Origin: Herbidospora sakaeratensis
Lineage (GTDB): Bacteria; Actinomycetota; Actinomycetes; Streptosporangiales; Streptosporangiaceae
Direction of reading: 5' to 3'
Assembly (NCBI RefSeq): GCF_001570525.1
Contig: NZ_BBXC01000010.1
Coordinates: 496,001 to 560,000 of the forward strand
DNA: 64,000 bases
This document shows positions 827 to 13,969 of the stretch, piece after piece. Position 1 is the first letter of the stretch. Each line of letters opens with the position of its first letter. The notes below the pieces were generated by a model. The model was not told the origin of the DNA. It saw nothing but the letters and a program-made list of their open reading frames with translations, and did not search any database. The position numbers and the translations under genes are program-made.

Positions 827-3800
827 ATGTCAGTTGCCGGCGGAGTCGGCGGGGGCCGTCATCTTTTGAGGCGGAGTCGAATGGTTCGTCGCAGGCGCAG
901 GGTGTATGTGATCATGGCGCTCACACCCCTGTTGGCGGTGGCCGCCGGATTGTTGACGGAGGCCGCGGGCGGCGATCTGCCCGATTGGACGACGGGGTGG
1001 CGGGCCTGGCCGATGCTGGCCGTCGTGACCCTGGTCAGCAGCCTGTTCGCCCTGTACGCGTGGCGCCAGCAGGAAGCCCGTCCGCAGCCGAGAGTGTTCC
1101 CGAACGTGCGGTTGCCGGAAGAGTGGACGTGGCGCCCGGAAGCCGACATCGCGATCACGTCGCTTCTTTCCGGCATCTCTCCCGGCGTCGCCTTCCACGG
1201 GGCCGGCGGTTTCGGCAAGACGTCACTCGCCAAAGCCGTGAGCGAAGACGGCAGAATCCGCAGGCATTTCCAGGGCGGAGTCGTCTGGACGGAAGTCGGC
1301 CAGCCGCGCGGGCGAAGCGGCGCAGAAGTGCTCGCGAGCATTCACGCCGCCGAAGAGGAGCACCCGCCGAAATACGGCAACCAGCTCACCGACGTCGAGC
1401 GGCTGAGCGGCCATATCGGGGAATTGCTCGAGAAAAGCGGCCGGGTGCTGGTGGTGGTCGACGACGTCTGGAGCGAGGGCCAGCTCGAACCCTTCCTGTC
1501 TCTGGGAGACCGGGTCCGGCTCCTGGTCACCACGCAGAAACCCGGAGTGCTGCCGCGCCGGATGAAGCGGATTCCGGTCGGCGCGTTGTCCTCGGTGGTG
1601 GCCAGGAAGATGCTCACCGCGGAGTTGCCCAAACTGAGCCACGAGTTCCAGGACAAGCTGCTGCGCCTCACCCACAGGTGGCCCCAGCTGCTCAGCCTGA
1701 TCATCCGCCGTCTGGTCACCGACGTCGAGCGGGGACTGAACGCGAACCGCGCCGCCCAGAAGGTGATCGACCAGTTCCGGGAGGCGGGGGTCACCGCCTG
1801 GGACATCAAGGACAGCGGCATGCGCACGACCGCCATCGGGGCGAGCGTCGAATACAGCCTGCGGGTGTTGTCCAAGGACGCCCGCGCCCGGTTCCTCGAA
1901 CTGGGCATCTTCGCCCAGGACGTGGACGTCCCGCTCGACACCGTCGTCGACCTCTGGCACGTCACCGCCGGTCTCAACCAGGCCAGGTCGGAGCGCCTCT
2001 GCGACGACCTCGCGGGCCTGTCCCTGCTCACGCTGCGCTGGATCGAGGACCGGCCGGTGATCACCCTCAACAGGACGATCCGGCTGTTCTCCCTGTCGCC
2101 CACCGTGCTGAGCGCCGACAAGCGCGTCCAGCTGAACCGGTCGTTCATCGACGCGGCCCGCCGCGATCCGTGGTGGACGTTGCCCCCGGAGCACTTCCTC
2201 TGGGACCAGCTGGCCTATCACCTGGCCCAGGCCGACCGGCAGGAGGAGCTCACGGACCTGGTGACCGACCTCGACTGGGTGCTGGCCCGCCTCGAACGGT
2301 CGGGACGATGGGCGCTGGAGTCCGACCTGAGTTTCTCCACGGCCGAGGAGACGGCGGAGATCCGCCCGCTGATCGCCCGGGTCGGCCACCTCCTGGACGA
2401 TCTGGGCAGCGGGGAACTGGCGCGGGCCAACCGCCGCACCCATCTCAGCGCGCTGCCCGTCTTCCGCGTCCAGGTGGAGCGCACGGCCACCGCCGACCGG
2501 CCCGACCTGCTCCCGTCGCTGCCCATCCCGGAGAGCCGCGACGCCGACTCCATCCGCACCCTGCACGCCCATCACGACGTGGTGACCGCCGTCGCGATCA
2601 TGGACGGGGGCCGGCTCGTCACGGGCTACCGCGACGGCACCGTCTGCGTGTGGGACATCGACAAGGGCACCCCCATCAGGCGGTTGACCGGGCACACCGG
2701 GGCCGTCACCGCCATCGCGCCGGCCCATGAGGGGCCGTTGCTGGCGACCGCTTCGGCCGACCGGACCATCCGCCTGTGGGACTGGGAGGAAGGCAGGACA
2801 CGCGCCGTCTGCGCCGGCCACGTCCGCGCGGTGACGGGGGTGGCGATCGCGGCCGACGGCACCTGGATCGCGAGTTCGTCGGACGACGGCACGGTCCGGC
2901 GCTGGGACATGAGGGGCGGCCAGCGAGCCGCCATCAAGGTCCAGGCGGCGGGCCCGGTCAACGCCGTGGCGATCTCTCCCGAGAGCTCCTGGTTCGCCAC
3001 CGCGTCCATGGACAGGAAGGTGCGGTTGTGGCACTTCAACGGCACCCCGATGGTCGAACTCGCCGTGCACGAACAGGCGGCCACCGCGCTGGCCGTCAGC
3101 CCCGACGGGAAGCGGATCGTCAGCGGCTCGCGTGACGCCACCGTGCGGGTCAGCGACACGCAGGGCTCCGAGCGCAAGGTGCTCACCGGCCACACGGGCG
3201 TGGTCAACGCCGTGGCCGTCGCCCCCGACGGCACGTGGGCGGCCAGCGCCTCCGACGACGGCACGGTGCGCATGTGGTACCCCGCCGCCGGCACCCCCGG
3301 ACGCATCTTCCGCGGCCACAACGGGCCCGTCACCGCGCTGGCGATCTCGCCCGACGGCGACCGGCTGGCCAGCGCATCAGGCGGGACCGTGTGCATCTGG
3401 GACACCACCGCGGCGGCGGGCATCACGGCCAGCGAGCACATCGGCACGGTCTTCGGCGTCAGCGCCGACCCGAAGGGAAGGTGGCTGGTCAGCGGCTCCG
3501 ACGACGCGACGGTCCGCCTCTGGAACGTCAACGACGGCCGCCAGATAGCCGTGCTCGAAGGGCACAACGAGGCGGTCACCTCGGTGGCGGTCGCTCCCGA
3601 CGGCACCTGGCTGGCCAGCGCCTCCGAAGACACGACCGTGCGGATCTGGCCGGTCGGCGACGACCGCGAGCCGCTCGTGCTCAGCGGGCACACCCGCTCG
3701 GTCAACGCGGTCGCGATCAGCCCTGACGGCACGTGGCTGGTCAGCGCCGCCGACGACGTGCACGTGCGGATGTGGAACGCCAGGCGCGGCACCGAGCGGC

Positions 3801-5973: not shown

Positions 5974-6819
5974 CTAACGACCGATGAGGTTCTCGATGAA
6001 ACGCCGCGATTGCGCGGCATCCAGAGCACGGGCTCTGACCTGCTCGAAGGCCGCCAGATATCGGCCGACGTCGCCGGCGCCCTCGATCACGTGGCCGCGT
6101 TCGAGCATCTCGACGTAGACCACCCGCGGATCGTCGCCGTCGAACTCGAAGATGCTGAAGGGGAAGCCCATCGCCTGATGCGGGCCGGCGCTGAAGGGCA
6201 GCACGAGCAGGGTGATGTTCTCCCGGTCGGAGTCGGACAGCAGCCGCCGGAACTGCGCGCTCATGACATCGGGACCCCCGACCGCCCGGCGCAGCGCAGC
6301 CTCGTCGAGGACGACGGTCAACGGCAGACCCGCCGGATCGTCGAGGATCCGCTGGCGCTCCATCCGCAGATCGACATGTCGTTGGACCGCCGCCAGCGTC
6401 GCATCGGTCCGGGCCAGCAGGCATTCGCGGGCGTAGTCGGGCGTCTGCAGCAGCGGGGTCACCAGGCTGTTCTCGTAAATGAGGACCCTGGCCGCCTCTT
6501 CTTCCAAGCTGAGCCTGGTCTCGGCGCCCTCCTCCAGGAGATCGGAGTAGCGGGACCACCAGCCTTTCTTCCGCGCCTCACGGACCACCTCAAGCAGTTC
6601 TTCGCGCCGTGAGCCCTGCACCCCGTAGAGGTCGAGCAGTTCCCTGGCGTCCTGGATCCGGACCGCGACCTGGTTGTTCTCGATCCGGCTGATCTTCGCC
6701 GACGAGCATTCGAGGTGCTCGGCGACCTCCTCGATGGTCCGGTGGGAGGCGGTGCGGAGCCGGTGCAGTTCCGCGGCGAGCCGACGGCGTTGCGTCACTG
6801 GACTCCTACCTCTGGCCAT
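5974..6819 (-). CDS. XRE-family regulator with DUF5753 domain (WhiJ-like)
   Basis: A 281-residue protein: N-terminal helix-turn-helix at about 25-50 (IEEVAEHLECSSAKISRIEN), then the DUF5753 region with typical features (WWSRYSDLLEEGAETRLSLE, LVTPLLQTPDYAR, LPFSAGPHQAMGFPFSIFEF, DVGRYLAAFE). GGGAGA lies five bases before the ATG. These regulators are abundant in actinomycetes, usually near small DUF397 proteins, and some such sets (WhiJ type) affect development. Here a second XRE-DUF5753 gene (7263) and a DUF397 gene (8331) lie nearby. The promoter region carries a TTGCA palindrome at 6869-6883, probably its own operator. Confidence 0.88.
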   Translation of the reverse strand: MARGRSPVTQRRRLAAELHRLRTASHRTIEEVAEHLECSSAKISRIENNQVAVRIQDARELLDLYGVQGSRREELLEVVREARKKGWWSRYSDLLEEGAETRLSLEEEAARVLIYENSLVTPLLQTPDYARECLLARTDATLAAVQRHVDLRMERQRILDDPAGLPLTVVLDEAALRRAVGGPDVMSAQFRRLLSDSDRENITLLVLPFSAGPHQAMGFPFSIFEFDGDDPRVVYVEMLERGHVIEGAGDVGRYLAAFEQVRARALDAAQSRRFIENLIGR

Positions 6820-7262: not shown

Positions 7263-8096
7263 ATGAGGCATACCCCGAACAGCCGGCATCACCAACGGGT
7301 GACGATCGGGGGGAACCTCCGAAGGCACCGCGCTGCGGCTGCCGTCCCGGTCGTGGAAGCGGCCGAGGCCCTGGGCCGCTCGCCGGAGTGGCTCGCCCAG
7401 ATGGAAGACGGCCGGGCGCTCATCAGGACGCGGGAGGCGAAGGTCCTCCTCGACGTCTATGGCGTCAGCGACCCGCCCCTGCTGGAACTGACGGAACGAA
7501 CCGGCTCCTGGTGGGGGGAGCACTCCGACCTCGTCGACGGGGAGATGGAGTCGCTGCTCCTGCTCGAAGACGGGGCGACGCTGGCACGCGGGTGCCAGTC
7601 CAGTCTCGTCCCCGGGCTGCTCCAGACCGCCTCGTATGCGCGGGAGCTCATGACCACCGTGACCGACCTGCCCTTGGAGGTGATCGAGCGCAAGGTGAGC
7701 CTGCGTACCGCCAGACGAACGGTGCTCGACCGCGAGCAGCCGCTCCACCTCGACGTGGTCGTCGACGAGGCCGCACTGCAGCTGCCGGTGGGCGGGCCGG
7801 CGGTCATGCGTGAGCAGTTCGAGCGGCTCGTCGAGGCCGCTGATCTGCCGAATGTGCGGCTACGGGTGCGGCTCTTCGATGCGGGGCCGCACCTCGCCGT
7901 TGCCTCCGCGTTCAACATCTTCAGCTTCGACAACGGAGATCCGCCGGTGGTGCAACTGGAACAGCTCGACCGGGAACTCCGCATCGAGCAGACCTTCGAG
8001 GTGGGCCGATACCTGCGCGCCTTCGATCACGCGGCGGAAGGCGCGCTCGACCCGGAGCGCTCGCGAGCCTTCCTCGCCGGGCTCGCGCGTGGCTGA
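7263..8096 (+). CDS. XRE-family regulator with DUF5753 domain, second copy
   Basis: A 277-residue paralogue of the regulator at 5974-6819. The HTH is at about 15-60 and looks weaker than in its paralogue (VEAAEALGRSPEWLAQMEDG). The DUF5753 part carries the same landmarks: WWGEHSDLVDGEMESLLLLE, LVPGLLQTASYARE, VDEAALQLPVGGPAVM, LFDAGPHLAVASAFNIFSF, VGRYLRAF. AAGGAGG lies directly upstream of the ATG. A DUF397 gene follows convergently at 8137-8331, completing a WhiJ-type regulator/DUF397 pair. Confidence 0.88.
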   Translation: MRHTPNSRHHQRVTIGGNLRRHRAAAAVPVVEAAEALGRSPEWLAQMEDGRALIRTREAKVLLDVYGVSDPPLLELTERTGSWWGEHSDLVDGEMESLLLLEDGATLARGCQSSLVPGLLQTASYARELMTTVTDLPLEVIERKVSLRTARRTVLDREQPLHLDVVVDEAALQLPVGGPAVMREQFERLVEAADLPNVRLRVRLFDAGPHLAVASAFNIFSFDNGDPPVVQLEQLDRELRIEQTFEVGRYLRAFDHAAEGALDPERSRAFLAGLARG

Positions 8097-8136: not shown

Positions 8137-8331
8137 TCAGCTCAGGTCGAACTCATCCGCCTTCACACCCGCCACGAACGCCGTCCACTCGTCGCGGGTG
8201 TACCGGAGAACGGCCCCCAGCCTGTCCTTGGAGTCCCTGACGAGGACTCCGTCACAGACGAAGGCCACCTCCACGCAGTTGGGGTTGGCCGCACCGGAGT
8301 ACGTGCTCTTCCGGAAAACCGCACCGCTCAT
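8137..8331 (-). CDS. DUF397 small protein
   Basis: A 64-residue protein with the DUF397 signature: FRKSTYSGAANPNCVEVAF, then VLVRDSKDRLGAVLRYTRDE and W..FVAGVK near the end. The start at 8331 has GGGAG at a normal distance, whereas an ATG three codons earlier (8340) touches the same Shine-Dalgarno sequence. DUF397 proteins are usually encoded next to XRE-DUF5753 regulators and are thought to act with them in an antagonist-like manner. It is convergent with the XRE gene at 7263-8096. Confidence 0.88.
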   Translation of the reverse strand: MSGAVFRKSTYSGAANPNCVEVAFVCDGVLVRDSKDRLGAVLRYTRDEWTAFVAGVKADEFDLS

Positions 8332-8448
8332 CTCGCTCATCTCCCTGAACTCGGGGCGTCACCGCCTGTCGCAAGCAGGCTGCGGGGAGCTGGTGGGGGG
8401 ACTACTTGGGGCACAGCCGGGGTCTCAACGAACAAGGAGAAGAAGCCG

Positions 8449-9387
8449 ATGAACGAGCAGAACCTCCCCGTGCTTTCGGCACGGGACGTGTCCTTCCGCC
8501 TGTGCGGCTCCATCGAGGTGATCGCCGACGGACGGCGGATCGACCTCGGTGAGCCCAAAGAGCGGGCGCTCCTGGGGGCCCTGCTGCTGGCGAAGTCGAA
8601 GAAGCAGCCGCAGGACGACCTCATGAAGTGGCTCTGGGACGAGCCGCTCCCAGATGGAGCGCAGGACGAGTTCTGGAGAACGGTCAGCAGGACCAGGAAA
8701 CGGCTCGGAGGTCTCGGCTTCGTCCTCGACCGGGTCGGAAAGCTCTACAGCCTGGAGGTCTCCGAGGAACGTGTGGACGTGCACGTTTTCGCGGCGATGG
8801 TCCAGAAGGCGGACAGCCTTCTCCACACCGACGACAGGCAGGCCGTCGCCCTGTTCCGGCAGGCACTCGACCTGACGAGCGGGACGCTCCTGGCCGACGT
8901 CGAAGGGCGCCGGATCGACGGGCTGCGCCAGCAGTGGGCCGCGACCCGGCGGCAGGCCATGCTGAAGATGGCCAAGGCACGCCTCCGGCTGGGCGAGCAC
9001 CACGAACTGATCAGCGAGTTGCTCGGTGAACACCACCGGAATCCCTACGACGAGGCGATCCTCGAACTGCTGATGATCGCGTATTACCGCGCGGGCGACG
9101 GGTTGAAGGCGCGGCAGCTCTACCGGGACCTGAAGAGACGACTGGCGAAAGTCCATTCGACCGACACCATGCGCCGCCTGGACGCTCTCTACGAGCGGAT
9201 GATGAAGCGCGACCCCGACCTCGAACCTCCGGCAGAGGAGACGCCCACCACCGAGTCCGGCCCCGCCCCGGAGGAGCAGCCCAAGCAGGCGGCCTCCGCC
9301 GCCGCGGGCACGCACTACGAGTTCCACGAGAAGGTCGTGGCGCCCCACGCGGTCTTCGGTGTCTCGAACACCTACCGAAGTCGGTGA
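8449..9387 (+). CDS. SARP-like regulator (winged helix + BTAD) with C-terminal AVFGVSN motif
   Basis: A 312-residue protein. Residues 13-95 resemble an OmpR-type winged helix (FRLCGSIEVIADGRRIDLGE, KERALLGALLLAKSK, RKRLGGLGFVLDRVG) and about 100-245 a bacterial transcriptional activator domain of helical repeats, as in SARP/AfsR proteins. A Pro/Glu/Ala linker follows. The last 25 residues contain HYEFHEKVVAPHAVFGVSN. The same AVFGVSN string, with the Y-x-F pattern before it, occurs near the N-terminus of the next protein. AAGGAGAAG precedes the ATG at 8449. It is the first gene of a four-gene operon (8449-13969). The shared motif suggests direct contact between the two products. Confidence 0.8.
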   Translation: MNEQNLPVLSARDVSFRLCGSIEVIADGRRIDLGEPKERALLGALLLAKSKKQPQDDLMKWLWDEPLPDGAQDEFWRTVSRTRKRLGGLGFVLDRVGKLYSLEVSEERVDVHVFAAMVQKADSLLHTDDRQAVALFRQALDLTSGTLLADVEGRRIDGLRQQWAATRRQAMLKMAKARLRLGEHHELISELLGEHHRNPYDEAILELLMIAYYRAGDGLKARQLYRDLKRRLAKVHSTDTMRRLDALYERMMKRDPDLEPPAEETPTTESGPAPEEQPKQAASAAAGTHYEFHEKVVAPHAVFGVSNTYRSR

Positions 9388-9391
9388 GCCC

Positions 9392-11458
9392 GTGACCGAG
9401 GACCAGGCAGACGCTCCCGTCCCCGACGATGACGTCGAAGACCCGGCGCCCGTTCAGCAGGTCACAACCATCGGTTCCGTGAACTACTCCTTCACGGATC
9501 TCGACGCTCGCGACGCGGTGTTCGGCGTGTCCAACAGCGTGCACGGTTCTCACCAGCCGCCCAAGGCCCACACCGGCGCCCTCTCCGCCACCGAGATCGC
9601 CGCCGCCGTCACCGACTTCGTGCAGCCGCCCCCCTACCGGACCGCCAAGTGGCGGATGAGGTCGGACCACATGGTCATCCTGGTCGGTCGTGCCGGTACC
9701 GGGAAGTACAGCGGGGGCGTCAACCTGCTCAGCGACGTCGTTGGCGGAAGAGGGCTGTACGTCCTCACTCCGTACAGCGGCCCTGACAAGCTGGCCAACC
9801 GGAAGTACAACGAGGGCTGCGGATACATCGTCGAGGGCGCGAAGGAGGATTTGGACAAGAAGCAGGCCGACTTCGAGTGGCGCCGGGTTCGGGCCAGAGT
9901 GGCGGACTGCAAGGCCTACCTGGTCGTGACGGTTGACGCCTCGATGGCTGAGGAGCATGGGCGGACCGACGCGGTGTCGCGGATCGCCTGGAGCCGCCCC
10001 GACCTGGTCGAGCTTGTCAGGGCGCGACTCACCGGCGATGCGGCGGACCCTCGTCTGGAGGGCGCCATGGCGGCCGTGCCACCAGAAGCGTCGCTCGACA
10101 GCGTCGTGAGGGTCGCCGATCTCATCAACGGCGGCATGGTGCCGGACGTCGCCGTGCAGACGGCCTTCGGCCTGGTCGCCAGGCAAGAGCTGTCGGAATG
10201 GTTCGCCCAGGATCATCCCTATGCGGATCAGGCCGAAGTGATGGTCCTCGCGCTGACCCCGGGTATCGGCGAGCCGGCGTACGAGAAGATCCTGGGCCCG
10301 TTCGAGGCGTTGCTGCAGGAACGTTTTCCGCGCGCCGGCACCATCACCGCCGAAGGAAACGACTCCCAGCCGCCGACGGACGGCCTCCGTCCCCGGCGGG
10401 CCGAACGCGGCCGTGGACTCATCACGGTCGAAGTGCAGACGGCCGACCTCGCGAGCCGCAGGTATCCCGTCTTCAGGAACGCCGCCTGTCAGGACAACGC
10501 GCTCAGCGTGATGTGGGACCGTTACGACGGGAATTTCTGGGCGATGGTCCGTTCCTGGGTCCACGAAGTGCTCGGCGATCCCGCCACCAGATTCGCGGTG
10601 TCCAAGGGTCTGGCCCGGCTCGCCTTCGACGCCTACGACCGGGAAGTGCTGCCGTCCTATTTGACCCCGTGGTCCCAGGGCGCCTTCGGACGAGACGGTC
10701 AAGAGGCCGCGATCTGGGTTCTGTCGCACATGTGCGAAGACCCGGTGCTGGCGCTCCGCGCCCTGGAGACCGCGACCCGCTGGGTCAGCTATGGCACGAC
10801 CCGGCAGCGGTGGACCGGCGCGCTCGCGTTCACCGGCCAGTTGGGGATCCTCTTTCCCGAGGCCGCCGTCGAGCGCATGTGGCAACTCGTCCGGCAGGAC
10901 AACGGGATCAGCGCGGAGGTCGCCGTCGGCATGGCGGACCTGTTCGCCACCCTCACCACACACGGGGAGGGGGCCGGCAAGATGCTGCGATACCTGAAGA
11001 CACGGCTCGACGACTACCAGCGGGTGGGGCGCGATCGGCCCTTCTACGCGCTGACCATGAAGGCGCTGGTGTCGACGTTGTCGGTACGGGACGCGCGGTC
11101 CGGCGAGCCGGCCATCGCCCTCTACCTCATTGATCGGCCCGACCGCCGGAATCTGGTGGCGCAGATCTGGGCGGCCGTGATCGGCTACCGTCCCGTCCGC
11201 CCTGAGGCGCTCCAGTCGCTCATGATCGCGCTGAAGGCGCTGCGCCGCCTTAGCAGGAATGCCGAGGACGAGGCGATGGCCCTAGGTATGGCGTTCGCGA
11301 ACGTGCTCGGCCCTGCCGCCTTCCACAGCCTGCGCGCCGGCTTGAACACGGAGATGCGGCGGCTCAACCGGTCGGACGAGGCCAACAAGAAACTCATCAG
11401 AATCCTGCTCAGCGCGATGGAACTCGCCTTTGCCATGAAAACTGGAGAAACGTCGTGA
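9392..11458 (+). CDS. P-loop protein with N-terminal AVFGVSN motif
   Basis: A 688-residue protein of no family I recognise. After an acidic start, residues 24-52 carry the motif region (GSVNYSFTDLDARDAVFGVS) that matches the C-terminus of the preceding protein. A Walker A-like GRAGTGKYS follows at about residue 101, with Tyr in place of the usual Thr/Ser after Lys, and YLVVTVDAS may be the Walker B strand. The C-terminal 350 residues look all-helical (MWDRYDGNFWAMVRSWVHEV, LALRALETATRWVSYG), like a scaffold. Start GTG 9392 is chosen because it follows the stop of the upstream gene by four bases; an in-frame ATG at 9359 overlaps that gene. Its last codons overlap the next start (GTGA). Confidence 0.7.
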   Translation: MTEDQADAPVPDDDVEDPAPVQQVTTIGSVNYSFTDLDARDAVFGVSNSVHGSHQPPKAHTGALSATEIAAAVTDFVQPPPYRTAKWRMRSDHMVILVGRAGTGKYSGGVNLLSDVVGGRGLYVLTPYSGPDKLANRKYNEGCGYIVEGAKEDLDKKQADFEWRRVRARVADCKAYLVVTVDASMAEEHGRTDAVSRIAWSRPDLVELVRARLTGDAADPRLEGAMAAVPPEASLDSVVRVADLINGGMVPDVAVQTAFGLVARQELSEWFAQDHPYADQAEVMVLALTPGIGEPAYEKILGPFEALLQERFPRAGTITAEGNDSQPPTDGLRPRRAERGRGLITVEVQTADLASRRYPVFRNAACQDNALSVMWDRYDGNFWAMVRSWVHEVLGDPATRFAVSKGLARLAFDAYDREVLPSYLTPWSQGAFGRDGQEAAIWVLSHMCEDPVLALRALETATRWVSYGTTRQRWTGALAFTGQLGILFPEAAVERMWQLVRQDNGISAEVAVGMADLFATLTTHGEGAGKMLRYLKTRLDDYQRVGRDRPFYALTMKALVSTLSVRDARSGEPAIALYLIDRPDRRNLVAQIWAAVIGYRPVRPEALQSLMIALKALRRLSRNAEDEAMALGMAFANVLGPAAFHSLRAGLNTEMRRLNRSDEANKKLIRILLSAMELAFAMKTGETS

Positions 11459-12624
11459 CAGAGCCCACCTACCCAATCGTGGACGAGAAGGTTCTCGGTC
11501 CGGTCGCCACGCGCCGCTTCCGGACCCGGAGCCGACGGGCCGGCGAGGTTCCGGAGCGCCGCTCGTACGACGCGCTGGTCTGGCGTTCCCGCGGGCACTA
11601 CCACGTCGACCTGGGCACTCTCGGCCTCGCCGACGCCACCGTGGTGAACGCCACCCATGTGAGCGTCGTCGACCTCAGTCGCAACCGGCTGGTCTCCGTC
11701 GAACTGGTGGTCCCGACGGGGGACTCGCGGGAGTTCCAGCTCGTGGTGACCTTCGCTTGTACGGTGATCGACCCGGTCGAAGTGGTCGAAGCCGGTCAGC
11801 GGGACGCCGCGGTGGCGCTCGCCGGATATCTGCGCGGCCACAGCCGGATCTTCGAGATCGGGCTGCGGCACCGGCTCGACGAAGTCAACGACTTCCGGCT
11901 CGCGGCCGTGGCGCAGATCCAGGCGTACGCCCACCATGTCTCGCCCAGGCTCCCTGGCCTGTCAGTCACGTTCATGAGCGTGGAGGTACGGACCCCCGCC
12001 GACCTCACCAAAGTGAGCGCCGCCCTGTTCGAAGGCCAGAAGAACCACGAGATCGCCACCGCCGCCCAGAAGCACGGCACCGAACTGGAGACCGACCGCG
12101 TCCGGGGACGGCAGGCCGTTGACAGCCTCCAAGCCGACTTCCAGCGGCAGTTGGCCAAGCAGCAGGAGGAGCTCCGTCAGGAACTCGCGGAGGCGAAGGC
12201 GCAGTTCGCCCGGAAGGAAGTCGAACTCGACCACGAGACGATCGACGGCGATCCGATCCGGGCGCTCGCCCTCGCCCTGCAGGCGGGCGAGATCACCGCC
12301 AAGGACTTCGCCCTCCGGCTCCAGACGGTACAGGACGAGGATCGGGCCCGCGTGGACGCCAGGGAGCAGCGCGAGCGCGAGGACCGGATCCGCCGGGAGG
12401 CCGATGAGCGGGACCGTGCGCTGCGGGAGTTCGAAGGCCGCAAGCAGCTCTACCGGGAGCTGATCGCGCAGGGCTACTTCGATGAGAACGACCCGGCTCT
12501 CCGGAAGATGGTCGACGGGCTGGTGCTCGGCGACCAGGGGCGTCCGTTGGGGAACGTGGTCGAGAACCCGGCGCTGGAGTCGTCCGCCGTCCCGGAGGAC
12601 ATGCGAGAAGAAGATGACGACTGA
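11455..12624 (+). CDS. Coiled-coil protein, function unknown
   Basis: A 389-residue soluble protein. Residues 1-190 look like a mixed alpha/beta domain that could be SPFH/band-7-like (LVSVELVVPTGDSREFQLVV, FRLAAVAQIQAYAHHVSP), though I am not certain. Residues 200-345 are highly charged Gln/Glu/Arg-rich heptads (LAKQQEELRQELAEAKAQFA, REQREREDRIRREADERDRA), clearly a coiled coil. The GTG start overlaps the upstream TGA, with GGAGAA in front, so translation is coupled. It also overlaps the next gene by 11 bases. The layout suggests a structural partner of the P-loop protein and the downstream membrane protein. Confidence 0.7.
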   Translation: MTEPTYPIVDEKVLGPVATRRFRTRSRRAGEVPERRSYDALVWRSRGHYHVDLGTLGLADATVVNATHVSVVDLSRNRLVSVELVVPTGDSREFQLVVTFACTVIDPVEVVEAGQRDAAVALAGYLRGHSRIFEIGLRHRLDEVNDFRLAAVAQIQAYAHHVSPRLPGLSVTFMSVEVRTPADLTKVSAALFEGQKNHEIATAAQKHGTELETDRVRGRQAVDSLQADFQRQLAKQQEELRQELAEAKAQFARKEVELDHETIDGDPIRALALALQAGEITAKDFALRLQTVQDEDRARVDAREQREREDRIRREADERDRALREFEGRKQLYRELIAQGYFDENDPALRKMVDGLVLGDQGRPLGNVVENPALESSAVPEDMREEDDD

Positions 12625-13969
12625 CACCCGCGTGAGCGTCCAGCCGGACGCCCTGAACCTGCTCTCGGTGCCGATCCGCCCGGCCCCGCCCGTGACCGGG
12701 TGGTCGCGGACGGTCCGGCGGATCTCCGGCATCCGCGATGACGTGCTCGACTGGGTGCCGGAGGAGCGACCCCGTTACACCTGGCAGGCCATCGTCCTGT
12801 TGAACGCCGGGATGCTGGCGACCGTGTCCATGCTCATATTCCTGGGCCGGGCCTTCTCCGCTCCCTGGTGGCTCCTTCTTCCCGGCGCGGTCTTGTGGGG
12901 CTGGCTGGTGATCTCCTTCGACGCCTGGCTCATCTCCAGCACGCACGGGATGAAGCGAGGCCGTCACTTCGCTCTCCTGTCACGGCTGGTACTCGCCGGC
13001 CTGGTGGGTTTCGTGATCGCCGAACCCCTGGTGATCCGCCTTTTCGAGCCGACGATTCGCCAGCAGGTCGGAATCACGCGTCTCAGCGAAACCACCGCGT
13101 ACGAAAGCCTCCTGAAGCGGTGTAACCCAGCGGATGGCGGCAGAGTGGCGGACGCGGACTGTGCCGGTCATCGGGTCGACGTCAAACGAACCGCCCCGGC
13201 CTTCGCCAAGGACCTCGAAGAGACGACCCGCGAGCGCGACAAGCTGGCCGCAAAGCTCAAAGGCCGTGAGGGCAGACTCGATCGTCTTGTCGACAGAAAG
13301 AGCGGTGAGTGTGACGGAACCAGCGGCAGCGGTCTTCCCGGCAACTTCGTGCAGTGCCAGCTGAAAACCCAGGACATAGTGGACTTCCGGACCTCGATTC
13401 AGGGCGATCGGGACCTGCTGAAGAAGCTCAATGACGACGTGACCGGGCTCATCGGCAAGCGGCGCGACGTGGAGAACGACGACCGGGCCCGGCTCAGCAC
13501 CCGGCTGGACCAGATGGTCGAAGACCATAAGAACACGCAGGGTGACATCGGAATCCTGGAGGAGTTGCACGCCCTCCACGCGCTCGCGCAGCGCGACTCC
13601 GTCGTCAACGTGGCCCAATGGCTGATCCGCGCATTGCTGATCACTCTGGAGTGCTGGCCGGTGATGACCAAACTCCTGGGAGGGCGCAGCACCTACGACC
13701 GCCTGATCGCAGATCGGCTGACGCTGGCGTATTCGCTGCACGAGAGGGAGACCGAACTGCACACCCACATCAAGACGGGCCACCTGCGCGTCGTCGAGGC
13801 GACGGAGCAGGAGCAGATCGACTCCGTGCTGAAGGAGGTCGCCGAACGGAAGCGGGCTCGGCTTGAGGAGATGGACAACGCCCAGCGAGCCGTGGACGCC
13901 CAGCAGCAGGAGAACCTTCTCAGGAGCATCGACGAACTTGCCGCTCGCTACCGCGGTCAGTCGGTGTGA
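12614..13969 (+). CDS. DUF4407 membrane protein
   Basis: A 451-residue protein with three predicted membrane helices at about 55-78, 84-109 and 117-145, a large domain at about 146-355, and a fourth helix at about 358-380 (VAQWLIRALLITLECWPVMT), then a cytoplasmic coiled-coil tail. The external domain holds four cysteines (RCNPADGG, ADCAGH, GECDG, VQCQLK) that could form disulfides, and long helices. This is the DUF4407 arrangement. The ATG at 12614 lies inside the end of the preceding gene, implying coupling. As last gene of the operon it would tether the soluble complex to the membrane; that role is inferred. Confidence 0.8.
   Translation: MTTDTRVSVQPDALNLLSVPIRPAPPVTGWSRTVRRISGIRDDVLDWVPEERPRYTWQAIVLLNAGMLATVSMLIFLGRAFSAPWWLLLPGAVLWGWLVISFDAWLISSTHGMKRGRHFALLSRLVLAGLVGFVIAEPLVIRLFEPTIRQQVGITRLSETTAYESLLKRCNPADGGRVADADCAGHRVDVKRTAPAFAKDLEETTRERDKLAAKLKGREGRLDRLVDRKSGECDGTSGSGLPGNFVQCQLKTQDIVDFRTSIQGDRDLLKKLNDDVTGLIGKRRDVENDDRARLSTRLDQMVEDHKNTQGDIGILEELHALHALAQRDSVVNVAQWLIRALLITLECWPVMTKLLGGRSTYDRLIADRLTLAYSLHERETELHTHIKTGHLRVVEATEQEQIDSVLKEVAERKRARLEEMDNAQRAVDAQQQENLLRSIDELAARYRGQSV

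Follow-up and report, generated by a model that had tools for sequence, protein, structure and literature searches.

Closest described systems

In AfsR, a SARP, an NB-ARC domain and TPR repeats stand in one chain, and the SARP module is controlled by a STAND NTPase with repeats. The locus analysed here lies in a stretch of 64,000 nucleotides of Herbidospora sakaeratensis (the window, in what follows) and resembles this arrangement, since a SARP DNA-binding module would again be placed under a STAND NTPase with repeats and the SARP-type protein, P0001, matches the SARP fold of AfsR. However, the two halves are separate genes here, apparently joined only by a shared motif.

A second comparison is with the amyloid-type signalling motifs of bacteria (BASS). 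Several families of these motifs, matched within the pair, have been described in NLR/Bell gene pairs of filamentous actinobacteria (PMC7889193, PMC12261475), and a review of BASS names Bell, CHAT and TIR as partners. The likeness is that adjacent genes encode a STAND receptor with a short motif at its N-terminus and a partner that has a matching one at its C-terminus. Nevertheless, the receptor is nSTAND3-like here and the partner is a SARP, or a cyclase in the relatives; no Bell, CHAT or TIR partner was found, as all the partners were SARP/BTAD or cyclase proteins. Furthermore, the window motif, whose amyloid state is presumed, does not have the G-phi-Q-phi-G core that defines RHIM and PP (PMC7885112) and to which BASS3 is related.

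Regarding effector-associated domains (EADs), the likeness is in homotypic coupling of a core NTPase protein to an enzymatic partner in one operon, and cNMP cyclases are among the enzymes of EAD-type NTP-dependent conflict systems (PMC7159879). Pycsar systems, made of a cyclase and a cNMP-gated effector, resemble the cyclase-type relatives of our locus, which have a class III-like cyclase fold, in most cases a CRP-like cNMP-binding protein and in some a PycTM-like gene. However, these relatives add the STAND receptor, a coiled-coil gene and a DUF4407 gene. In the literature that we searched, outside which the founding BASS paper falls, we found no description of a SARP or a cyclase that is coupled through motifs of this kind.

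The motif pair and the proteins that carry it

The two neighbouring genes of the window have a 20-residue tag in common, which lies near the C-terminal end of the partner protein and in the head of the NTPase (Table 1). A sequence-only reading had described a Y-x-F...AVFGVSN motif at the end of P0001 with a match in the head of P0002, and both copies are indeed present. In longer extracts, the P0001 tail reads ...GTHYEFHEKVVAPHAVFGVSNTYRSR up to the end of the protein, and the P0002 head, before the P-loop, reads ...SVNYSFTDLDARDAVFGVSNSV... The Y-x-F part of that description holds locally but not as the general form, because it is one version of an N/H-x-aromatic element seen in the relatives, whose consensus is approximately V-x-N-x-(F/L/V)-x-G-x-V-(D/S)-A-x-x-A-x-F-G-(I/V/F).

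Table 1. Features of the locus, with positions in the window
Feature	Residues	Positions	Strand	Basis
HTH_31-DUF5753 regulator, upstream gene of the SARP variant		7263..8096	+	Pfam; 6/6 SARP loci
DUF397-type small gene, divergent from the SARP gene		8137..8340	-	translation; 6/6 SARP loci
P0001, SARP-type partner: winged helix and BTAD, disordered linker, C-terminal motif		8449..9387	+	Pfam BTAD E 4.4e-22; AlphaFold2 fold
C-terminal motif copy THYEFHEKVVAPHAVFGVSN	P0001 288-307	9310..9369	+	alignment, shuffling, profile searches
P0002, nSTAND3-like P-loop NTPase with C-terminal helical repeats, presumed receptor		9392..11458	+	family Pfam match, AlphaFold2
N-terminal motif copy VNYSFTDLDARDAVFGVSN, before the P-loop	P0002 30-48	9479..9535	+	alignment, shuffling, profile searches
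P-loop GRAGTGK	P0002 99-105	9686..9706	+	alignment A1, G104 invariant
Conserved downstream gene 1: beta-rich N-terminal part and charged coiled coil		11455..12624	+	homologues in related loci
Conserved downstream gene 2: DUF4407 membrane protein (start picked by inspection)		12614..13969	+	PF14362 E 7.2e-58

The exact 7-mer AVFGVSN is found both in the last 35 residues of P0001 and in the first 64 of P0002, where the chance expectation is around 1e-5, and shuffling of the SARP tail gave z = 5.0 (P ~0.001) for the window pair. Since the two stretches are separated by about 110 bp where the genes abut, one might suspect chance, or a DNA duplication of recent date between one gene end and the next gene start. 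Nevertheless, apart from the low expectation, synonymous codons differ at 6 of the 14 identical motif residues, while 7.0 are expected from a random draw, which argues against a recent duplication. As the pairing is moreover found in 50 loci, even where the motif is entirely different, this explanation is already contradicted and we give it practically no weight.

A profile of the motif, searched against the whole 8.6 Mb genome, detected two sites (E 1.9e-13 and 4.7e-10; the next match had E 1.0) and no third copy; the profile was built with both window copies, so the informative part is the absence of a third. The exact pattern VFGVSN gave, besides the pair, one unrelated interior match in the same genome, where VFGVWN was also found in a dehydrogenase-like protein.

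P0001 has the winged helix and the BTAD of a SARP. AlphaFold2 predicts both domains as folded, and the fold matches those of EmbR (2ff4) and of AfsR in its complex with RNA polymerase (8k60, 8hvr). A disordered linker follows (residues 264-288), and behind it the motif is predicted with low confidence as strand-turn-strand, with strands at 288-298 and 301-310 and pLDDT near 50.

In the case of P0002, AlphaFold2 predicts disorder in residues 1-78, which include the motif, then an alpha/beta NTPase, a wing and long helical repeats; the top fold match is human SAMD9, with a weak TM-score. PF20720 (nSTAND3) was matched by 18 of 22 members of the NTPase family, with a best E of 4.5e-7. P0002 alone reached E 0.076 and 13.2 bits, below the curated cut-off of 27.2, but since its family members score that well, we class it, from sequence comparison, as a divergent nSTAND3 relative. 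Thus a STAND NTPase with repeats is found at the family level, and nSTAND3 differs from the NB-ARC/NACHT type. There is also a weak second match to P0002 in its own genome (L002, C14:340606-340998, E 0.003, 29% identity over 128 residues).

The disorder also bears on whether this is an EAD system (Kaur et al. 2020), in which the motif would be the end of a small unrecognised globular adaptor domain. The architectural rule is the same, with one copy on the core NTPase and another on the enzyme, adjacent genes and cognate copies that are most alike (PMC7159879). However, the EADs in the literature are mostly alpha-helical and fold as small domains. Here the match covers only about 20 residues with disordered flanks, Pfam detects no domain in this region, and we judge this explanation to be very improbable.

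Pairing and exchange in the relatives

Within the same family, 37 of 251 genomes have a homologue of P0002; in the class they are 46 of 395, and in a sample drawn across the phylum 6 of 246, all six within the class. The nearest named relative is that of Herbidospora galbida (75-76% identical), the plasmid collection gave one distant match, and a contig scan with alignment A2, narrower than the broader and more diverse A1, gave four loci. We collected the loci with a partner gene directly upstream of the NTPase, 50 in total, which left out L064-L068 and L117 for want of a partner, L111, where none was seen, L112, at a contig edge, and L118, with no usable ORF match. In L055, the NTPase gene is apparently split into two matches, in frames of 404 and 494 residues, by a frameshift or a sequencing error.

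All but a few of the 50 loci have a matching motif on the upstream tail and on the disordered head of the NTPase. In the first set, shuffling of the tail gave P<0.05 in 29 of 33 loci, the other four not reaching this individually; L106 and L109 ranked poorly by local alignment, with a motif that is visible by eye. When the tails were permuted over 20 NTPase clusters under 40% identity, the cognate tails had a mean score of 53.6 versus 32.6 for the permuted ones (sd 2.2, maximum 42.5 of 20,000; P<=5e-5). An HMM of the cyclase tails, trained without any NTPase or SARP sequence, scored 9.6 bits on the P0002 head and 9.1 on the P0001 tail, the best of 1120 shuffles being 4.2. Over all loci, the codons differ at 267 of 684 identical motif residues versus 298 expected, which is almost randomised, so the likeness of the motifs is held at the protein level. 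The six solo homologues without partner (L064-L068, L117) have a short stretch before the P-loop in which the motif is absent.

The motif of the window family is approximately VxNxFxGxVDAxxAxFG(I/V). In Streptomyces-like genomes, so called from our reading of the genome grouping, the motif family is replaced in both genes together, for example in L116, L119, L120 and L122. Matched motifs are FGGSLVAGDQHGVSGGQVTGNVHLGG with FGGSAVGGSQHGVSGGQVGGDVYMGG in L116, GTVHGTQNNISGNRISGGFHLGG with GTVRGDQNNIAGNQISGDVFLGG in L120 and GARISAERVYGGDHN with GAGVRSERAYGGDHF in L115. By eye, the matched motifs of the cyclase/NTPase pairs of L113, L114, L116, L119, L120, L121 and L122 are G/N/Q-rich, like those of classical BASS.

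Regarding the partner upstream of the NTPase, six loci have a SARP/BTAD protein (the window, L032, L033, L034, L043 and L057) and 44 a class III nucleotide-cyclase-like protein, and in both kinds the protein ends with a motif that is matched at the N-terminus of the NTPase. The profile of the cyclase family, which is present in the relatives and not in the window, matches the class III cyclase Ma1120 (5d0g, E 9.9e-6), and D15, D59 of a GDG and R127 are invariant in it. From general knowledge of class III cyclases, we take D15 and D59 to be the two metal-binding aspartates and R127 the transition-state arginine. The two cyclases tested with PADLOC gave no match to PycC. When the kind of partner is mapped onto the NTPase tree, three changes are required, and well-supported branches force at least two of these; therefore the partner was exchanged more than once while the pairing of the motifs was kept.

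Thus, the BASS-like layout that had been proposed for the window, with a partner C-terminus and a STAND NTPase N-terminus in adjacent genes, persists across 50 loci, with motifs that match within the pair and change together, and the pairing is not lost in other genomes. Nor is the motif a by-product of one conserved fold, because it is carried by two unrelated partner folds. As for the proposed receptor NTPase with a separate effector, the STAND-type receptor layout stands, but the partner is a SARP transcription activator and not a killing effector.

Operon, proposed mechanism and meaning

The operon continues with two conserved genes. The first, which gave no Pfam or PDB match, has a homologue in five of the six loci of the SARP kind and in 36 of the 44 with a cyclase; an SPFH/band-7 identity was considered for it and dropped, as neither Pfam nor PDB supported it. 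The DUF4407 gene is found in five and 33 of these loci, respectively. Beside the SARP operon of the window, two HTH_31-DUF5753 regulators adjoin each other (5974-6819 on the minus strand and 7263-8096 on the plus strand), and a similar DUF5753 gene pair is seen in 6/6 SARP-type loci. Between the DUF397 and SARP genes we found no conserved candidate for SARP-box repeats, and there is no VMAP, vWA or MoxR gene among the conserved neighbours.

A CRP-like gene, found in none of the six SARP loci, lies upstream in 39 of the 44 cyclase loci, and a PycTM-like gene is beside 11 of the 44, with a weak PADLOC match (1.9e-5, L036). Together, these two genes suggest a Pycsar-like branch under the control of a STAND receptor. 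The PycTM-like membrane gene is divergent in the cyclase-type loci L036, L054, L038, L053, L051, L056, L062, L058 and L063, and in L056 a macro-domain protein (2606-3283) is encoded upstream of it.

That receptor and partner are coupled by the motif is, in our opinion, very probable, with support at the sequence level from the matched motifs, the conservation of the pair, the joint changes, the two unrelated partners, the conserved operon and the solo homologues free of the motif. An amyloid-type mechanism for this coupling is the reading that we favour with some confidence, because the predicted strand-turn-strand, the length of around 20 residues, the disorder, the placement at opposite ends and the swapping of motif families agree with the reviewed BASS motifs (PMC7889193, PMC12261475).

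The main rival is a soluble docking pair that is not amyloid, for example a small inter-chain beta-sheet, which would recruit the partner stoichiometrically and without templated polymerisation. The shuffled-tail, permutation, HMM and codon evidence for coupling fits it equally well. The hairpin-like element of the AlphaFold2 monomer and a motif without poly-Q/N character and without the RHIM core also speak for it; neither the window motif nor the cyclase-tail alignment has a Q in its core. Against the amyloid reading, a simple aggregation scale, to be taken as a rough guide, gives only moderate hot spots, the strands predicted for the SARP motif have a low pLDDT and the NTPase motif is simply disordered. 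However, the two sides are alike, and such homotypic pairing is expected of a common stack and not of a lock and key. Furthermore, the layout, the length, the disorder and the frequent replacement of the motif family are as in BASS motifs (PMC7889193, PMC12261475), and by eye the G/N/Q-rich motifs of L116, L120 and L122 are like classical amyloid motifs. We regard docking without amyloid as rather unlikely, although clearly less so than an EAD system.

For the amyloid-type coupling, we infer the physical interaction, the amyloid state, the sensing and the outputs, which would proceed as follows. P0002, as a STAND-type receptor, would stay off as long as its repeat region has sensed no cue. Once activated it would oligomerise and gather its N-terminal motifs, which may then nucleate a stack of strand-turn-strand units (beta-arches) as in amyloid signalling, and the matching C-terminal motif of the partner would then join this template, so that the partner is clustered and switched on. 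In the window the output would be a transcriptional response through the SARP, an activator like AfsR and EmbR; in most relatives it would be a cyclic nucleotide, made by a class III cyclase beside a CRP-like cNMP-binding regulator and sometimes a PycTM-like protein. Taken in full, that a SARP is switched on by prion-like templating through a new family of amyloid motifs, and that its slot is interchangeable with a cyclase and CRP module, is a proposal that in our view could equally turn out right or wrong.

The system may be described as BASS-like in its working and EAD-like in its logic, the comparison with BASS (BASS1-10) being made with the reviewed descriptions of the motifs. We file it under neither, because a Bell, CHAT or TIR partner, a RHIM-type core and a folded EAD were all absent.

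What bacterial signalosomes do is a question raised in reviews of amyloid signalling (PMC7889193). On one receptor chassis, this family offers testable outputs, namely a DNA-binding activator, or a cyclase with a cNMP-binding regulator. The joint replacement of the motifs and the interchange of the partners amount to a natural domain-swap experiment, in which a short motif would be the coupling element. The family further suggests a counterpart of AfsR that is split over two genes, and a possible Pycsar-like branch controlled by a receptor. If the proposal is true, amyloid signalling would end here in gene expression or in a cyclic nucleotide, and not in membrane damage.
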